DNA of 39,025 nt from an uncultured Caryophanales bacterium (lineage in GTDB: Bacteria > Bacillota_I > Bacilli_A > RF39 > UBA660), in the NCBI GenBank assembly GCA_946412015.1, contig CAMKGA010000001.1:65041-104065 (forward strand). Direction: 5' to 3'. Under the pieces are notes generated by a model. It was not told where the DNA came from, searched no databases, and worked only from the letters and a program-made list of their open reading frames with translations. The translations under genes and the position numbers were made by a program. Positions within the stretch are counted from its first letter, which is position 1, and each line of letters begins with the position of its first letter. This document shows, piece by piece, positions 19,796 through 35,643 of this stretch.

Positions 19796-20080
19796 CTATT
19801 TTTTTATATCTAACAAAAATTTAACAAATTCAGATTCAGCTTTATCACATGCAATTTTATGTCATATCTTAACAGCATCTTGCAAAATTTCTCTATCTGT
19901 TAATTTTAAAAATTCATCTAATCTTTTTACCCAATCTTCCATTGTCATTGGAATATGCCTTTTTGCTCTATCTTCTGCTAAATCAAGATATGCCGTAACA
20001 ATTCTTCTTAATGAGTACAACTCATCTTCATTTAAATAATTTTTTGCAACTAATACATCACTTTTTATAATTTTTCCATT
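19796..20080 (-). pseudogene. 3' fragment of a rhuM-like (virulence RhuM family) gene fused in frame to the recombinase remnant
   Basis: NGKIIKSDVLVAKNYLNEDELYSLRRIVTAYLDLAEDRAKRHIPMTMEDWVKRLDEFLKLTDREILQDAVKI[TGA]HKIACDKAESEFVKFLLDIKK*; the RhuM C-terminal pattern continues past an in-frame TGA at 19862. Confidence 0.75.
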
Positions 20081-20677
20081 AGGAACTAATGACACGGATT
20101 TATCATCGTTAATATCATATACATAATCAGTTCCTATTTTTAGGATAAACCTAACAACATTAGAATTTATACTTTTATCTTCACATTTTTCTCCAACAAT
20201 AATCTTCTCAACTAAATTATTAAAGATATTTTCATCAAATTCTTTAATTTCATTTTTTAACATTCCAATCTTTTTATTTATTTCTTTTTCCTTTGATAAA
20301 TAAACATCAACATGTTTTTCTCTAAGTAATCTTATATATTTTAAGGTATCAAGTGTATTTCGAGCAAACCCAGATATAGACTTAGCGATAATAATATCAA
20401 TTTTGCCATTAATTGCATCATCAATCATTTTAGTAAACTCTACTCTATTTTTTACTTGTGTACCACTGATTCCTTCATCAGCATAAACACCTACAAAATC
20501 CCAGCTAGAATTAGATTTTATCATTTTAGAATAATGCTTAATTTGTGAATTATAACTTGTTTGTTGTTCTTCTGAGTCTGTACTTACTCTCGCATAAGCA
20601 CAAACTTTCTTCTTTAAATTATTAACGATTTCATCTTCAGTTTTGAGATTAGCTTTAATAATCTCAACTTGTGCCAT
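19862..20677 (-). pseudogene. internally deleted large serine recombinase fused to the RhuM C-terminus
   Basis: Resolvase domain VCAYARVSTDSEEQQTSYNSQIKHY...GVYADEGISGTQVKNRVEFTKMIDDAINGKIDIIIAKSISGFARNTLDTLKYIRLLREKHVDVYL is followed directly by the family C-terminal coiled coil KEINKKIGMLKNEIKEFDENIFNNLVEKIIVG; the recombinase and zinc-ribbon domains are missing. Confidence 0.8.
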
Positions 20678-20877
20678 TATACCTCTCTTTCTAAAATATT
20701 TGACAATCAATATCTGATATACCCCATAAATAATTATAACTTATTTTTTTATAATAAAATACACTTTTTACTAAAATTATTTAATTTTTTATAATTGAAT
20801 AAATAATATTGCTTGCCATATATATCAAATATTATACCTATTATACACTCTTGACATGGCATATACTAGTGCATGAG

Positions 20878-28163: not shown

Positions 28164-29490
28164 TTATATATTCTTTTTTCTAATAATTGTTTTTATACAT
28201 AGTATAATCAATATTATTCCACATACACTTCCAATAGTAATTAAAACGTACTTAATTATATTATCACTTGTATTAGGATTATTACTAATACTCTTTATTT
28301 CATTTTTACTTACAACATTAAACTTAGTTGTAGCCTCTCCATTACTAAACACTACTTTTAAAGTATGTTCTTTATCATCTAAACTATCTAAATAACTACT
28401 GTTTAACTCTATTATAGTACTACCCTCTTTAGATGAAAAATCACTATCACTTAATAATTTATCATCAACATATACTTTACCACCATCTTTAAAATAACTA
28501 TAATCTGCATCTATTTTAAATATTAATGGTTTATTACTCTTCTTAGTATAAGTTTTTTTATCACCACTTAAAAACTTATAAAGCTTATCTCCTACATACT
28601 TAACAAGAATAGTATATCCATCTTTCTGATTACCTGTAATATCATATGCATAATCATTATTATCTTTAACACTAACCTTATATACAGCCTCTTTAGGATT
28701 ACTATTATAATCCGGATCAAGGTTTAAATCATTTAAATATAAATCAGTAAATGAGTATTTCCAATTATTTTTATCATTAACCTTAACTGTTTTAATATTA
28801 GCTTCATTTTCTGTATATAATGTAAGTTCTAAATCATTTGGTTTTTTATAAATATTATCTTCAAATACAACATTTACATCTACATTATAATCTAACTTCT
28901 TAGCATTATATTTATAGTTTAAAGTATATATATTATCATTTTTATCAACTGTATAATCATATCCTTCTACCCTAGTATTTGAGCTAAGTGAGTACTCAGC
29001 AGGTTTACTAAAATCAGGTTTATCATTAACAATTAAATAAGGATAAAGATTCGCAGAAAACTTCCAATTAGATGTTTTATATTCAAATCCATCTGGAGTA
29101 GATAAATAGCTTTCTTCTCTTGCCGGCATAATCTGAATTGATCTATGAAATGAATCATCTTGATTGCTTAATGTATATTGCAATATCCAAGGACGAAGAC
29201 CATCTCTATTATCAGCATCATCAAATGCAACATTAAAATCATAAAATCTTTTAGCATTCGCAATTATTATAATAGTACCCTCATTATATAAAACATCATA
29301 GTGTTCTTCTTTATAATTATATCTTGAATAATCATCACGAGAATAATAATTTTCTGGAAGATTATTAACACCATAAAAACTATACTCAGTCTCCATTTTT
29401 ATATTACTAATCCTTAGTCCATCAAATCTAACTACACAATCCCAGATATCTGGATTAGATGTAGTATCACAATTATCTTTAGAATTATAA
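28164..29490 (-). pseudogene. surface protein fragment (C-terminal TM) truncated at its 5' end by an IS
   Basis: Reading frame stays open upstream of ATG 29396 (YNSKDNCDTTSNPDIWDCVVRFDGLRISNIK-METEYSF...) to the IS boundary without a start or signal peptide; C-terminal NTSDNIIKYVLITIGSVCGIILIILCIKTIIRKKNI membrane anchor. Confidence 0.7.
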
Positions 29491-29510
29491 CCGGACAGTT
29501 TTTCATTTAG

Positions 29511-29544
29511 AAAGGACTCGAGGATTTATATTCCCGAGTCCTTT
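29511..29544. terminator. hairpin just inside the left IS end (possible transcription insulator)
   Basis: AAAGGACTCG (29511-29520) / CGAGTCCTTT (29535-29544). Confidence 0.5.
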
Positions 29545-29613
29545 CTTTGCTTATACGGCATTTTTCTGCTAAAATATAGTTATAACAAAAAATAATAGAA
29601 AGCAGGTAGCCGT

Positions 29614-30771
29614 ATGAATAAAATATATAATACTCAAGAAAAAATTGCAACTAAATTAAAGAATTTTTTATTAGAATGTTTTGGTAATATTAGAAAAACT
29701 CAACTTAAAATCATTCCTTATATTGTTATTGGTATGATTTTAGCTGGTTCTACTGTTGCATCCGATATCGCAATGAAATTAAAGGATAGCTTTTCACTAA
29801 TACAACATGACTCTATTATCAAAAGAATAAAAAGATTCTTTATAAATAAATTATTTAATCCTTATGCCTTTTACGATAAGGTTATTAGATATGTTTTTTT
29901 AAACTATACTGTAAAGCATGAGGATAAACGTGTTCATATCATTTTTGACCATATGTTCTCTCACGATAATTATACTGTTTTTATGATTACTATGAGAATT
30001 GGAAAACAAGGTATACCTTTATGGTTTAGATGTTATAAGGGAAAAGATGATCCTAAAGCATTCGATGAGGAAATGTTAAAAAAAGGAATCTCCTATGCAT
30101 CATCGTTATTTCCAGCTGATTATGACCTAATTTTCCTTGCCGATAGATGGTTCAATTCTACTTCACTTCTTGATTACATTGATTCTTTAGGAAGAACCTA
30201 TGTTGTCAGACTAAAAGGAAATATAAGATGTTATGTTTATGATAAAAAAGAAGGTCATAAAATTTGGACAACCACCGGTAATTTATATGCTTATGAGAAT
30301 AAATCAGCATTTTACAATGATATTGAAATCACTAACAACCAATTTAAAACAAATATCACAGTAAACAAAAAGAAAGGCGTTAAAGAGCCATGAATTATTG
30401 CCACAAACGGAGATACTAAAAGAGCTATTAAGGATTATGGCTATCACTTTGGTAGTATTGAAACACTATTTAAAAATCAAAAATCTAATGGTTTATATTT
30501 AGAATCGACTGTAAAAGCTGATATTAAATATTTTGAATCAATGTATACTATGGCTTGCTTTTCTGTACTTTTTCTTACAATATATGGAGCAGATTATACT
30601 AAAAACTCTAACTGTTATAAAGGAGTTAAAGTAACTACTCATAAAAATATCAATGGCACTAAAACACGAGTTATGTCTTTATTTAGTATAGGATTAATGT
30701 TATTTAATAAAGCAATTAATTCCCTGAAATACATTCGGATACCTTTTACACTAAAATTATACGATACCTAA
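29614..30771 (+). pseudogene. DDE transposase with in-frame TGA at 30391-30393
   Basis: ORF 29614-30393 (VHIIFDHMFSHDNY..., LIFLADRWFNSTSLLDYI...) continues in the same frame after TGA: ...KKGVKEP[TGA]IIATNGDTKRAIKDYGYHFGSIETLFKNQKSNGLYLESTVKADIKYFESMYTMACFSVLFLTIYG... Confidence 0.88.
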
Positions 30772-30872
30772 ATACTCACTTATACAATTGATGAATGTTT
30801 TAAAATTTCAAAGTCTGAATTCTTTTTGTTGTGTGCATTTTTTAACACAGCATGCATTATTAATAAAATAAG

Positions 30873-30917
30873 CCGTGAATATCGTCAACTGCTGGACGAA
30901 TATATTCACGGTTTTTA
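30873..30917 (+). terminator. terminator after the transposase
   Basis: CCGTGAATAT (30873-30882) / ATATTCACGG (30902-30911) followed by TTTTTAT. Confidence 0.75.
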
Positions 30918-30995
30918 TATCATTTATTCCTTATATTTCAACTATTTTATAAAACTGTCCGGTTATAAGTCGCTAAGAGTATTTAGACTATCAGT

Positions 30996-31994
30996 CTAAT
31001 TTCCTGCACTAGATATTAGAGATTTAGAAATAGTTATAACTGGTCGCACAACCCCATATTCGTCGTAGACGTGGTAGCGGTAGGGCAAGTCATAGGTGTT
31101 AACGTACCAAACACTATTCGACACACTATTTCTTGGACTAGAAGTCCAATACCAAGAATTAATGTGTAACCAACTTGGTGCTTCTGCTGATTTAGAACAA
31201 TATCCTGATTGTATACAAGAATCACTATAACCTAGACTTTTCAAATCTTCTAAAGTAATTAATCTTGCATCACTTGCGGCTGGGGCTTTAGCAGTTTTCC
31301 ATGCATCTACTACATATTTTACTTCTGATGATGCATAATCTTTTTTACATCCATCATATACCCGAGTATTATTTACATATCCGCAAGTTTCACTTGAATA
31401 ATATGCCATGCCACCATAGCCATTTTTATCATATGCAGTTCCTACTGAACCAACTGTATATCTGTTTACATGTCCTGCGCCATACTCGTTTACTTCTGCA
31501 ACCTTTAATGGTTCTGCTTTTAGAAGTGTTACTGTAGATTCTTTTGCTCCTGAATCTTTAATTACATAATAATTAATATTATTATATGTTACTTGATTAC
31601 CTATAGTATAAGCAGTATAAGTAGGTGTTTTATCACTTCCATATTTATAATCTCCTGTACTTCTACCTGCTACTGTACATCCTGCAAGATATACTGATGA
31701 ATCAGGATTGATTTGTGTTGTTTCACATACTACTTGATTACCTGAGTATTCTATTGTTAATTGTGATACTTCTGTTGGAAATTTACCTGTATCTAGTAGG
31801 TAACCTGCGATTGCTAGTTCAACAGATCTACCATATACATCAACTGATCTTTTATCTGCAGATATTCTTACCTTTCTAATTATATTCATAACAAGTGGTG
31901 TCACTATAAGAGCAATGATTGCCATAATTACTAATACAGCAATAAGCTCTATTAATGTAAAACCTTTACCTCTTTTTAAAAATTTCTTTTCCAT
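30996..31994 (-). CDS. type IV prepilin-like surface protein with C-terminal lectin-like domain; candidate DGR target
   Basis: Prepilin N-terminus GKGFTLIELIAVLVIMAIIALIVTPLV; C-terminus SWLHINSWYWTSSPRNSVSNSVWYVNTYDLPYRYHVYDEYGVVRPVITISKSLI. Confidence 0.88.
   Translation of the reverse strand: MEKKFLKRGKGFTLIELIAVLVIMAIIALIVTPLVMNIIRKVRISADKRSVDVYGRSVELAIAGYLLDTGKFPTEVSQLTIEYSGNQVVCETTQINPDSSVYLAGCTVAGRSTGDYKYGSDKTPTYTAYTIGNQVTYNNINYYVIKDSGAKESTVTLLKAEPLKVAEVNEYGAGHVNRYTVGSVGTAYDKNGYGGMAYYSSETCGYVNNTRVYDGCKKDYASSEVKYVVDAWKTAKAPAASDARLITLEDLKSLGYSDSCIQSGYCSKSAEAPSWLHINSWYWTSSPRNSVSNSVWYVNTYDLPYRYHVYDEYGVVRPVITISKSLISSAGN
31062..31106 (-). other. candidate DGR variable region core (NNC codon block)
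   Basis: TAC GTT AAC ACC TAT GAC TTG CCC TAC CGC TAC CAC GTC TAC GAC: 12 of 15 codons end in C and 23/45 nt are G/C, inside an AT-rich gene. Confidence 0.6.
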
Positions 31995-34814: not shown

Positions 34815-35643
34815 TCACGCATTAATTTTTTTTATTTTTATAACAATATATCTTGTGCCTTTATAAATAATTATATCTCCAATATAATAGTCATTGCTTT
34901 CAATAGTATTATTATATACATATCTTTTTTCTTTCGTTATAAGAGATACTTTATTTTTCTTTATTGTTACAACTGGGTTTGTCAAAGCCAATTCTGTCAC
35001 ATTCTTGTTTAATATTTTATCAAAATTAAGTATATATAACATATTACCATCATCAGAAGGACTCATTGTCTAAGAGTTGTAATAAATATTTTTCAACCAT
35101 TTTGGACTTAAAGAAGTTTTAAAATAGCCACCTATTGATGGGGTTGGAGTTTGATATTCAAAATATAAAGAATTAGTTATTTCATCAATATTAAGAATCC
35201 TTGCTCCATAACCATATTTATCAACTGATATATCTGAAGAGTCAATATTATCTGTAGCCCACCCATCTAATATTTCTTTTATAAATGAAAATTTATAATC
35301 TAAATTACAACCTGAATTTATAAATTCTCCACTATCCATATTACAGTTACTAGATTTATAATATGGTACCTGTCCTAAAGCGTCACTATTATATAAACTA
35401 TTCGTCGTTAATGTATTTTCATATAAAGTCGAAAAGGAATAAATCTCATCTCCACCATATTTCTTTATATCTTCCATTAATAGAGGTCTATCTTTAATCA
35501 AAGTATATGAATCGTCATTAACTGATACAACATTAAAAAAATATCTTTATATTTAACTTAATCACCCTGAATAATTTCGTCTGCATATATTTTATTTAAT
35601 GATATAAAAAACAAAACTAACATAAAAAATATTTTTTCATCAT
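34815..35643 (-). pseudogene. decayed secreted protein with a domain related to the C-terminal part of the prepilin-like protein
   Basis: Composite reading: MMKK / IFFMLVLFFISLNKIYADEIIQGD[TAA]VKYKDIFF / NVVSVNDDSYTLIKDRPLL...NIYYNS[TAG]TMSPSDDGNMLYILNFDKI...; ORFs 34815-35066 and 35070-35501 are one frame split by TAG at 35070. Confidence 0.8.

Follow-up and report, generated by a model that had tools for sequence, protein, structure and literature searches.

We report that a block of NNC codons near the 3' end of a type IV prepilin-like gene is probably (about 0.78 by our estimate) a genuine diversity-generating retroelement (DGR) variable region (VR) that is now orphaned and most likely a frozen variant. 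The gene lies in a stretch of 39,025 nt, hereafter the window, which was analysed over its full length together with the draft genome that contains it (G000; 57 contigs, 1.69 Mb, approximately 93% complete) and the draft assemblies of six congeners, which include RUG12438 and RUG14702, MAGs from the rumen that are labelled as uncultured Erysipelotrichaceae.

The prepilin gene and its variable region

The DGR-type target gene (30996–31994, minus strand) encodes a protein of 332 aa with an N-terminal class III signal peptide (GFTLIEL motif), a hydrophobic helix, and a C-terminal DUF6273/Lcl_C-like domain. The prepilin N-terminus named in the original prediction was recovered by both Pfam N_methyl (PF07963; 28.5 bits, cut-off 21.2) and TIGR02532 (28.3 bits, cut-off 16.3). 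The NNC block (31062–31106, minus strand) reads in frame and codon for codon as first described, between WYWTSSP and GVVRPVITI, and its composition sets it apart from the rest of the gene as proposed: 12 of its 15 codons are NNC, compared with 14 of the remaining 317 (4.4%; binomial P ~2e-14). NNC codons account for 4.0% of the 11,579 codons in the 39 ORFs of the window, where the block is the top 15-codon stretch and all stretches with at least 8 NNC per 15 codons fall inside this one gene. The G + C content of the block is approximately 50%, that of the gene 33%. Alignment with the template of a sister gene on contig C13 places the VR at approximately 31045–31127 (minus strand), so that the predicted block stands but the VR reaches beyond it; codons 311–312 (GAA, TAT) depart from the NNC pattern. 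Elsewhere in the window, an ORF at 19862–20710 (minus strand) combines the N-terminal domain of a resolvase with a C-terminus of the RhuM family and is perhaps a deletion fusion.

Mutagenesis of adenines in AAC codons is expected to change codon positions 1 and 2 and to keep position 3, whereas ordinary drift should do the reverse. Between the window gene and its 83%-identical congener ortholog, the differences at positions 1, 2 and 3 numbered 8, 6 and 1 in the VR and 33, 28 and 54 elsewhere, which is a ratio of positions 1 + 2 to position 3 of 14:1 in the VR and 61:54 outside (Fisher p 0.004). A wider block of 18 codons gave 15:3 vs 46:45 (p 0.018), the additional third-position changes being due to drift at the 3' end of the VR. 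Eleven further paralog pairs (79–92% identity) showed the same direction, with odds ratios of 3.7–19 and p < 0.05 for each, although the pairs have members in common and cannot count as independent. The pairs window–C13 and C13–L107 (78–79% identity) showed no significant asymmetry, as expected if their VRs come from different templates.

Among 47 intact prepilins that were fetched, the fraction of NNC among the 18 codons that precede VRP spans 0.83 to 0.00 continuously, while outside this segment it stays at 0.02–0.07. Many paralogs have an AT-rich C-terminal segment with 0–20% NNC, and the NNC run is therefore not imposed by the protein; with AT-rich codons kept there in paralogs, codon bias and protein constraint were ruled out as its cause. 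Column entropy was 2.79 bits in the VR and 1.57 bits in the remainder of the domain. The codon-position pattern of the window VR is the footprint of AAC-codon mutagenesis. The claim of adenine-directed mutagenic retrohoming was thus upheld, both by this split and by the DGR-type reverse transcriptases (RTs), Avd genes and templates that lie beside prepilins of the same family.

DGR cassettes in the same genome

The original prediction had noted no RT or template in the window and had proposed a search of the genome for both. Within the 39,025 nt of the window, DGR-type RT and Avd were indeed not found; elsewhere in G000, the search returned five RT matches on four contigs, with DGR-type RT on C13 and C26, Avd on C13, C26 and C8, and templates on C13, C26 and C8. 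The search was successful for the RT but yielded no template that matches the window VR.

Contig C13 (locus L026) carries a full cassette consisting of a sister prepilin, a MutS-domain-I ORF, Avd, a DGR-type RT and a template. The sister prepilin (L026:5127–6134, minus strand; 335 aa) is 72% identical to the window protein. Avd (111 aa) was recognized by PF22296 (bAvd; 38.8 bits), NF033474 (4.6e-10) and phrog_3206 (1.3e-8). The RT (409 aa) has the motif IGSMSSQ, where group II RTs read QG...SP. Its closest sequence match in the PDB was 8ub7 (6e-26), which is listed as a reverse transcriptase and which we take for the RT complex of the BPP-1 DGR; group II RTs followed behind it, led by 7uim (5e-12). 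A MutS-like accessory gene is familiar from DGR surveys, and in the cassettes examined here a short ORF stands ahead of Avd (L026:4391–4804, minus strand, 137 aa; L027:1969–2340, plus strand; L124:5468–5887, minus strand), with MutS domain I confirmed by Pfam in the copies on C13 (33.8 bits) and C26. All 15 mismatches between the C13 template and its VR are located at template adenines (24 A), with none at the 58 non-adenines. The template measures 82 nt and the VR 85 nt, the VR having one extra AAC-type codon; runs of AAC are known to undergo slippage in codon-sized steps (PMC12875486).

The C26 cassette (L027) comprises a 504-aa prepilin, a template (1718–1830), MutS_I, Avd and RT, and serves a prepilin subfamily other than that of the window gene. 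The end of contig C8 (L029) holds a 97%-identical copy of it in which the RT is frameshifted; the templates of the two copies differ, and the pair represents either a duplication or a strain mixture in the assembly. On C14, a template remnant (L032:1083–1180, plus strand; C14:4082–4180 in G000) lies ahead of a prepilin whose VR is of the NNC type. It has kept its 5' end (TCGGCGTCTAATGTCTGGAATGTCAACAATGATGG) and the conserved post-template region but lost its middle, and the full form of this template type persists on contig C74 of G005; template loss with survival of the target gene therefore occurs in G000. A further RT (L028:5446–6435, plus strand; motifs YSDD and QGAPTS) appears retron-like by eye, and no Avd or template was seen near it.

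Template search and the 3' end of the window gene

A search for a template of the window VR, using a pattern that allowed A anywhere and up to three mismatches, returned only the VR itself in G000 and the six congener draft assemblies. A generic motif (TGGAAYGTNARCAAYRATGR) and a conserved pre-template motif (GGGNTAAKACTG) led back to the cassettes already described and to the remnant on C14, but to no template for the window VR. Aligned to ten templates or template remnants, the VR showed non-adenine mismatches or gaps in each, and derivation from the templates of C13, C26, C8, C14, G001, G004 and G005 was rejected on this basis. The adenine-only match between VR and template by which a DGR target is recognized was hence not found for the window gene in these draft assemblies, of which that of G000 is approximately 93% complete and could hide a template in a gap. 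The gene is therefore filed as DGR-derived by pattern and not as a current DGR target.

The IMH-like end of the gene (31044–31055, minus strand) has undergone three synonymous third-position changes, with GGGGTTGTGCGACCAG (GGG GTT GTG CGA) in the window and GGCGTTGTCCGCCCAG (GGC GTT GTC CGC) in the ortholog, and there is no cognate template with which it could share a G/C-rich IMH. A hairpin over the stop codon (30983–30999, minus strand; 7 bp, TTAGACT-GAT-AGTCTAA) is intact, AT-rich, and has a 3-nt loop; it is identical in the congener ortholog, and in the target of the C13 cassette it recurs with AAT as its loop. Downstream of the gene, only the first ~48 nt align before an insertion sequence (IS) begins (29482–30971). 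The IS has 21-nt terminal inverted repeats (95% complementary), which flank a DDE_Tnp_1 transposase ORF (29614–30393, plus strand; 259 aa), and is probably shortened. It starts 11 bp past the stop-codon hairpin, at the site that is occupied by a larger structured element in other family members; this element is absent after the window gene, and the sequence past the IS does not continue it.

These observations suggest the following course of events. An ancestral DGR RT with Avd would have copied an AAC-rich template RNA, misincorporating opposite adenines, and the cDNA would have replaced the 3' end of the window prepilin gene, turning AAC codons into NNC codons and giving new side chains to the loop just ahead of the conserved VRPVI terminus. 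The window copy would since have lost its matching template, its IMH-like site would have drifted, and an IS would have come to stand where the downstream structure was; complete cassettes persist around at least the sister on C13 and, for a second subfamily, on C26. Because of the missing template, the drifted site and the position of the IS, the window copy is most likely frozen and its VR presumably inactive.

A different origin of the window VR, in which a diversified sister prepilin donated it through gene conversion or duplication and drift followed, is unlikely. Such a source would be at hand in the ~37 related genes with similar flanks, and the orthologs in G000 and G001 have different neighbourhoods as judged from their ORFs (uvrC/IS vs prs/hrcA), so genes of this prepilin family do move. 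A second copy of the VR sequence, however, was not found in G000. The VR also differs from that of the ortholog at most adenine-type positions while its flanks are conserved, which is equally expected under retrohoming in situ, so that this comparison hardly separates the two readings. We infer that the window VR was made by retrohoming itself and not by recombination from a sister.

The original prediction left open whether the system acts in trans or has been lost, and the second of these is favoured, since no template found in G000 or the six congeners fits the VR at non-adenine positions. It appears distinctly improbable that a DGR with a template absent from the draft assembly continues to diversify the gene in trans as a remote target. 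Two kinds of complete DGR cassette are present in G000, the assembly is incomplete (~93%), the stop-codon hairpin is intact, and activity in trans on remote targets is known (PMC10907252; PMC7517822). However, no template with up to three mismatches was found in its own genome or the six congeners, every template that was found mismatches the VR at non-adenines, and the site of the downstream element is taken by an IS. Moreover, no template was found for the VR of the ortholog in G001, although its IMH-like end and its downstream element are intact. A compositional accident, in which foreign GC-rich DNA or codon bias shaped an ordinary variable loop independently of any DGR, can practically be dismissed. 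The ~50% G + C of the block in a gene of 33% would allow it, but the excess sits in the NNC codons, positions 1 and 2 change while position 3 does not, and the template of a sister gene in G000 mismatches its VR at adenines only.

A conserved structured element downstream of target genes

The ortholog and the targets on C13, on G001-C18 and in G005 are each followed by an element of approximately 130 nt. It contains three hairpins, of which two are mostly capped by GAA triloops. Five conserved and covarying copies (L026:4969–5099, minus strand; L104:4797–4924, plus; L105:2942–3072, minus; L139:1727–1854, minus; L140:1661–1795, plus) were aligned, among which those of C13 and G001-C18 are nearly identical. 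In this alignment, 99.1% of the cells pair and 9 of the 23 pairs change on both sides, values that were reached by no shuffle. The element has no match in Rfam. Its covariance model matched 18 places in 4 of the 7 genomes, of which 13 lie 31–107 nt past the 3' end of a prepilin gene on the same strand. GAA triloops form unusually stable DNA hairpins, and the element may therefore act as DNA. We regard it as a lead, a candidate for target recognition.

Prepilin family, pilus machinery and C-terminal domain

The window protein has 43 matches in G000 at E <= 1e-20, which correspond by count to ~37 distinct dispersed loci, and relatives in all six congeners. A remnant in the window (34815–35501, minus strand) is related to the C-terminal region of the prepilin (BLASTP 7e-11), has an in-frame TAG ahead of MSPSDDG, and is devoid of the NNC block. 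The genome also encodes members of the pilus assembly ATPase family (PF00437; 410.7 bits on C16, 207.2 bits on C9), and a platform protein (T2SSF) and a prepilin peptidase (Peptidase_A24) are adjacent on C21. The prepilin signal and this machinery point to display at the pilus tip, where the window protein would bind ligands.

The C-type lectin-like fold proposed for the VR-bearing domain is only hinted at. In the window protein, the C-terminal domain scored 17.7 bits with Lcl_C (cut-off 34.9) and 16.9 bits with DUF6273 (cut-off 23.5), and among 34 such domains DUF6273 matched 14 and Lcl_C 3 (at 0.01). An AlphaFold (AF2) model from eight sequences had a mean pLDDT of 51 and no fold match in the PDB, and a profile of the 34 domains did not retrieve any DGR protein from the same database. 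CBM_5_12 matched 17 of the 34 domains near their start (best 5e-6), which could be a glycan-binding motif or chance similarity. A domain of this type (VRPVINVYKNAIK) also forms the end of a non-prepilin protein (L035:4201–5253, plus strand) that adjoins a prepilin and, by eye, has dockerin-like repeats.

Comparison with known systems and significance

The DGR of Bordetella phage BPP-1 (mtd VR, template, Avd, bRT) shares with the system described here the homology of RT (8ub7) and Avd (phrog_3206, PF22296), the AAC-type codons at variable sites, the position of the VR at the 3' end of the gene, and a hairpin over the TAG stop codon (PMC3240598). The IMH of BPP-1 lies at the 3' end of the VR (PMC3240598), and the sister genes have a similar GC-rich, IMH-like end. 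The BPP-1 hairpin, however, has a GC-rich stem and a GRNA tetraloop, whereas that of the window gene is AT-rich with 7 bp and a 3-nt loop, and the BPP-1 target is a phage tail fibre, not a type IV prepilin. Other differences are the location of the template, which follows the RT on C13 and precedes the MutS_I ORF on C26, the extra MutS-domain-I ORF, and the lack of a template for the window VR.

Dispersed paralogs that share a C-terminal domain and carry VR-like ends far from the RT resemble the remote variable-protein paralogs of cyanobacterial DGRs (PMC7517822), but the dispersed genes here are prepilins of a rumen genus labelled Erysipelotrichaceae, and many of their ends fit no template that was found. 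The window gene is comparable to the left-over remote target SP32 of Treponema denticola (PMC4891356), whose template is absent from the genome, and to VRs of Thiohalocapsa PB-PSB1 (PMC10907252) that match no template; both were read as remnants of a lost or altered DGR. These cases concern other hosts and targets, and the window locus in addition has an IS at the end of the gene. DGR-diversified pilins of another pilus type have already been published, according to the review PMC12632263, which cites Macadangdang et al. 2024: there, as here, a DGR diversifies the binding end of a pilus protein, although the tip pilins of Bacteroides belong to type V pili (lipoproteins) and those described here are class III prepilins of a type IV system. 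The open-access literature that was searched mentions putative pilin structures among DUF1566-type targets and the DGR-diversified type V pilins; a description of such a class III prepilin family as DGR targets was not found in it.

With the genes described here, the known targets of DGRs come to include a family of class III prepilins, from a rumen lineage that carries the label Erysipelotrichaceae. With ~37 dispersed genes of apparently different orphaning ages in a single genome of 1.7 Mb, the family offers a direct view of DGR-made variants after the loss of their templates, and target recognition has a testable candidate in the conserved element past its target genes. We tentatively propose, as a possibility that is still rather doubtful as a whole, that the genus holds a genome-wide prepilin library, in which several DGRs would write the binding ends and template loss, IMH drift or IS insertion would then freeze them, leaving many fixed variants and few evolving ones, and that the targets of this family would be marked by a previously undescribed element, mostly with GAA triloops and about 30–45 nt past the stop codon, that would serve retrohoming.
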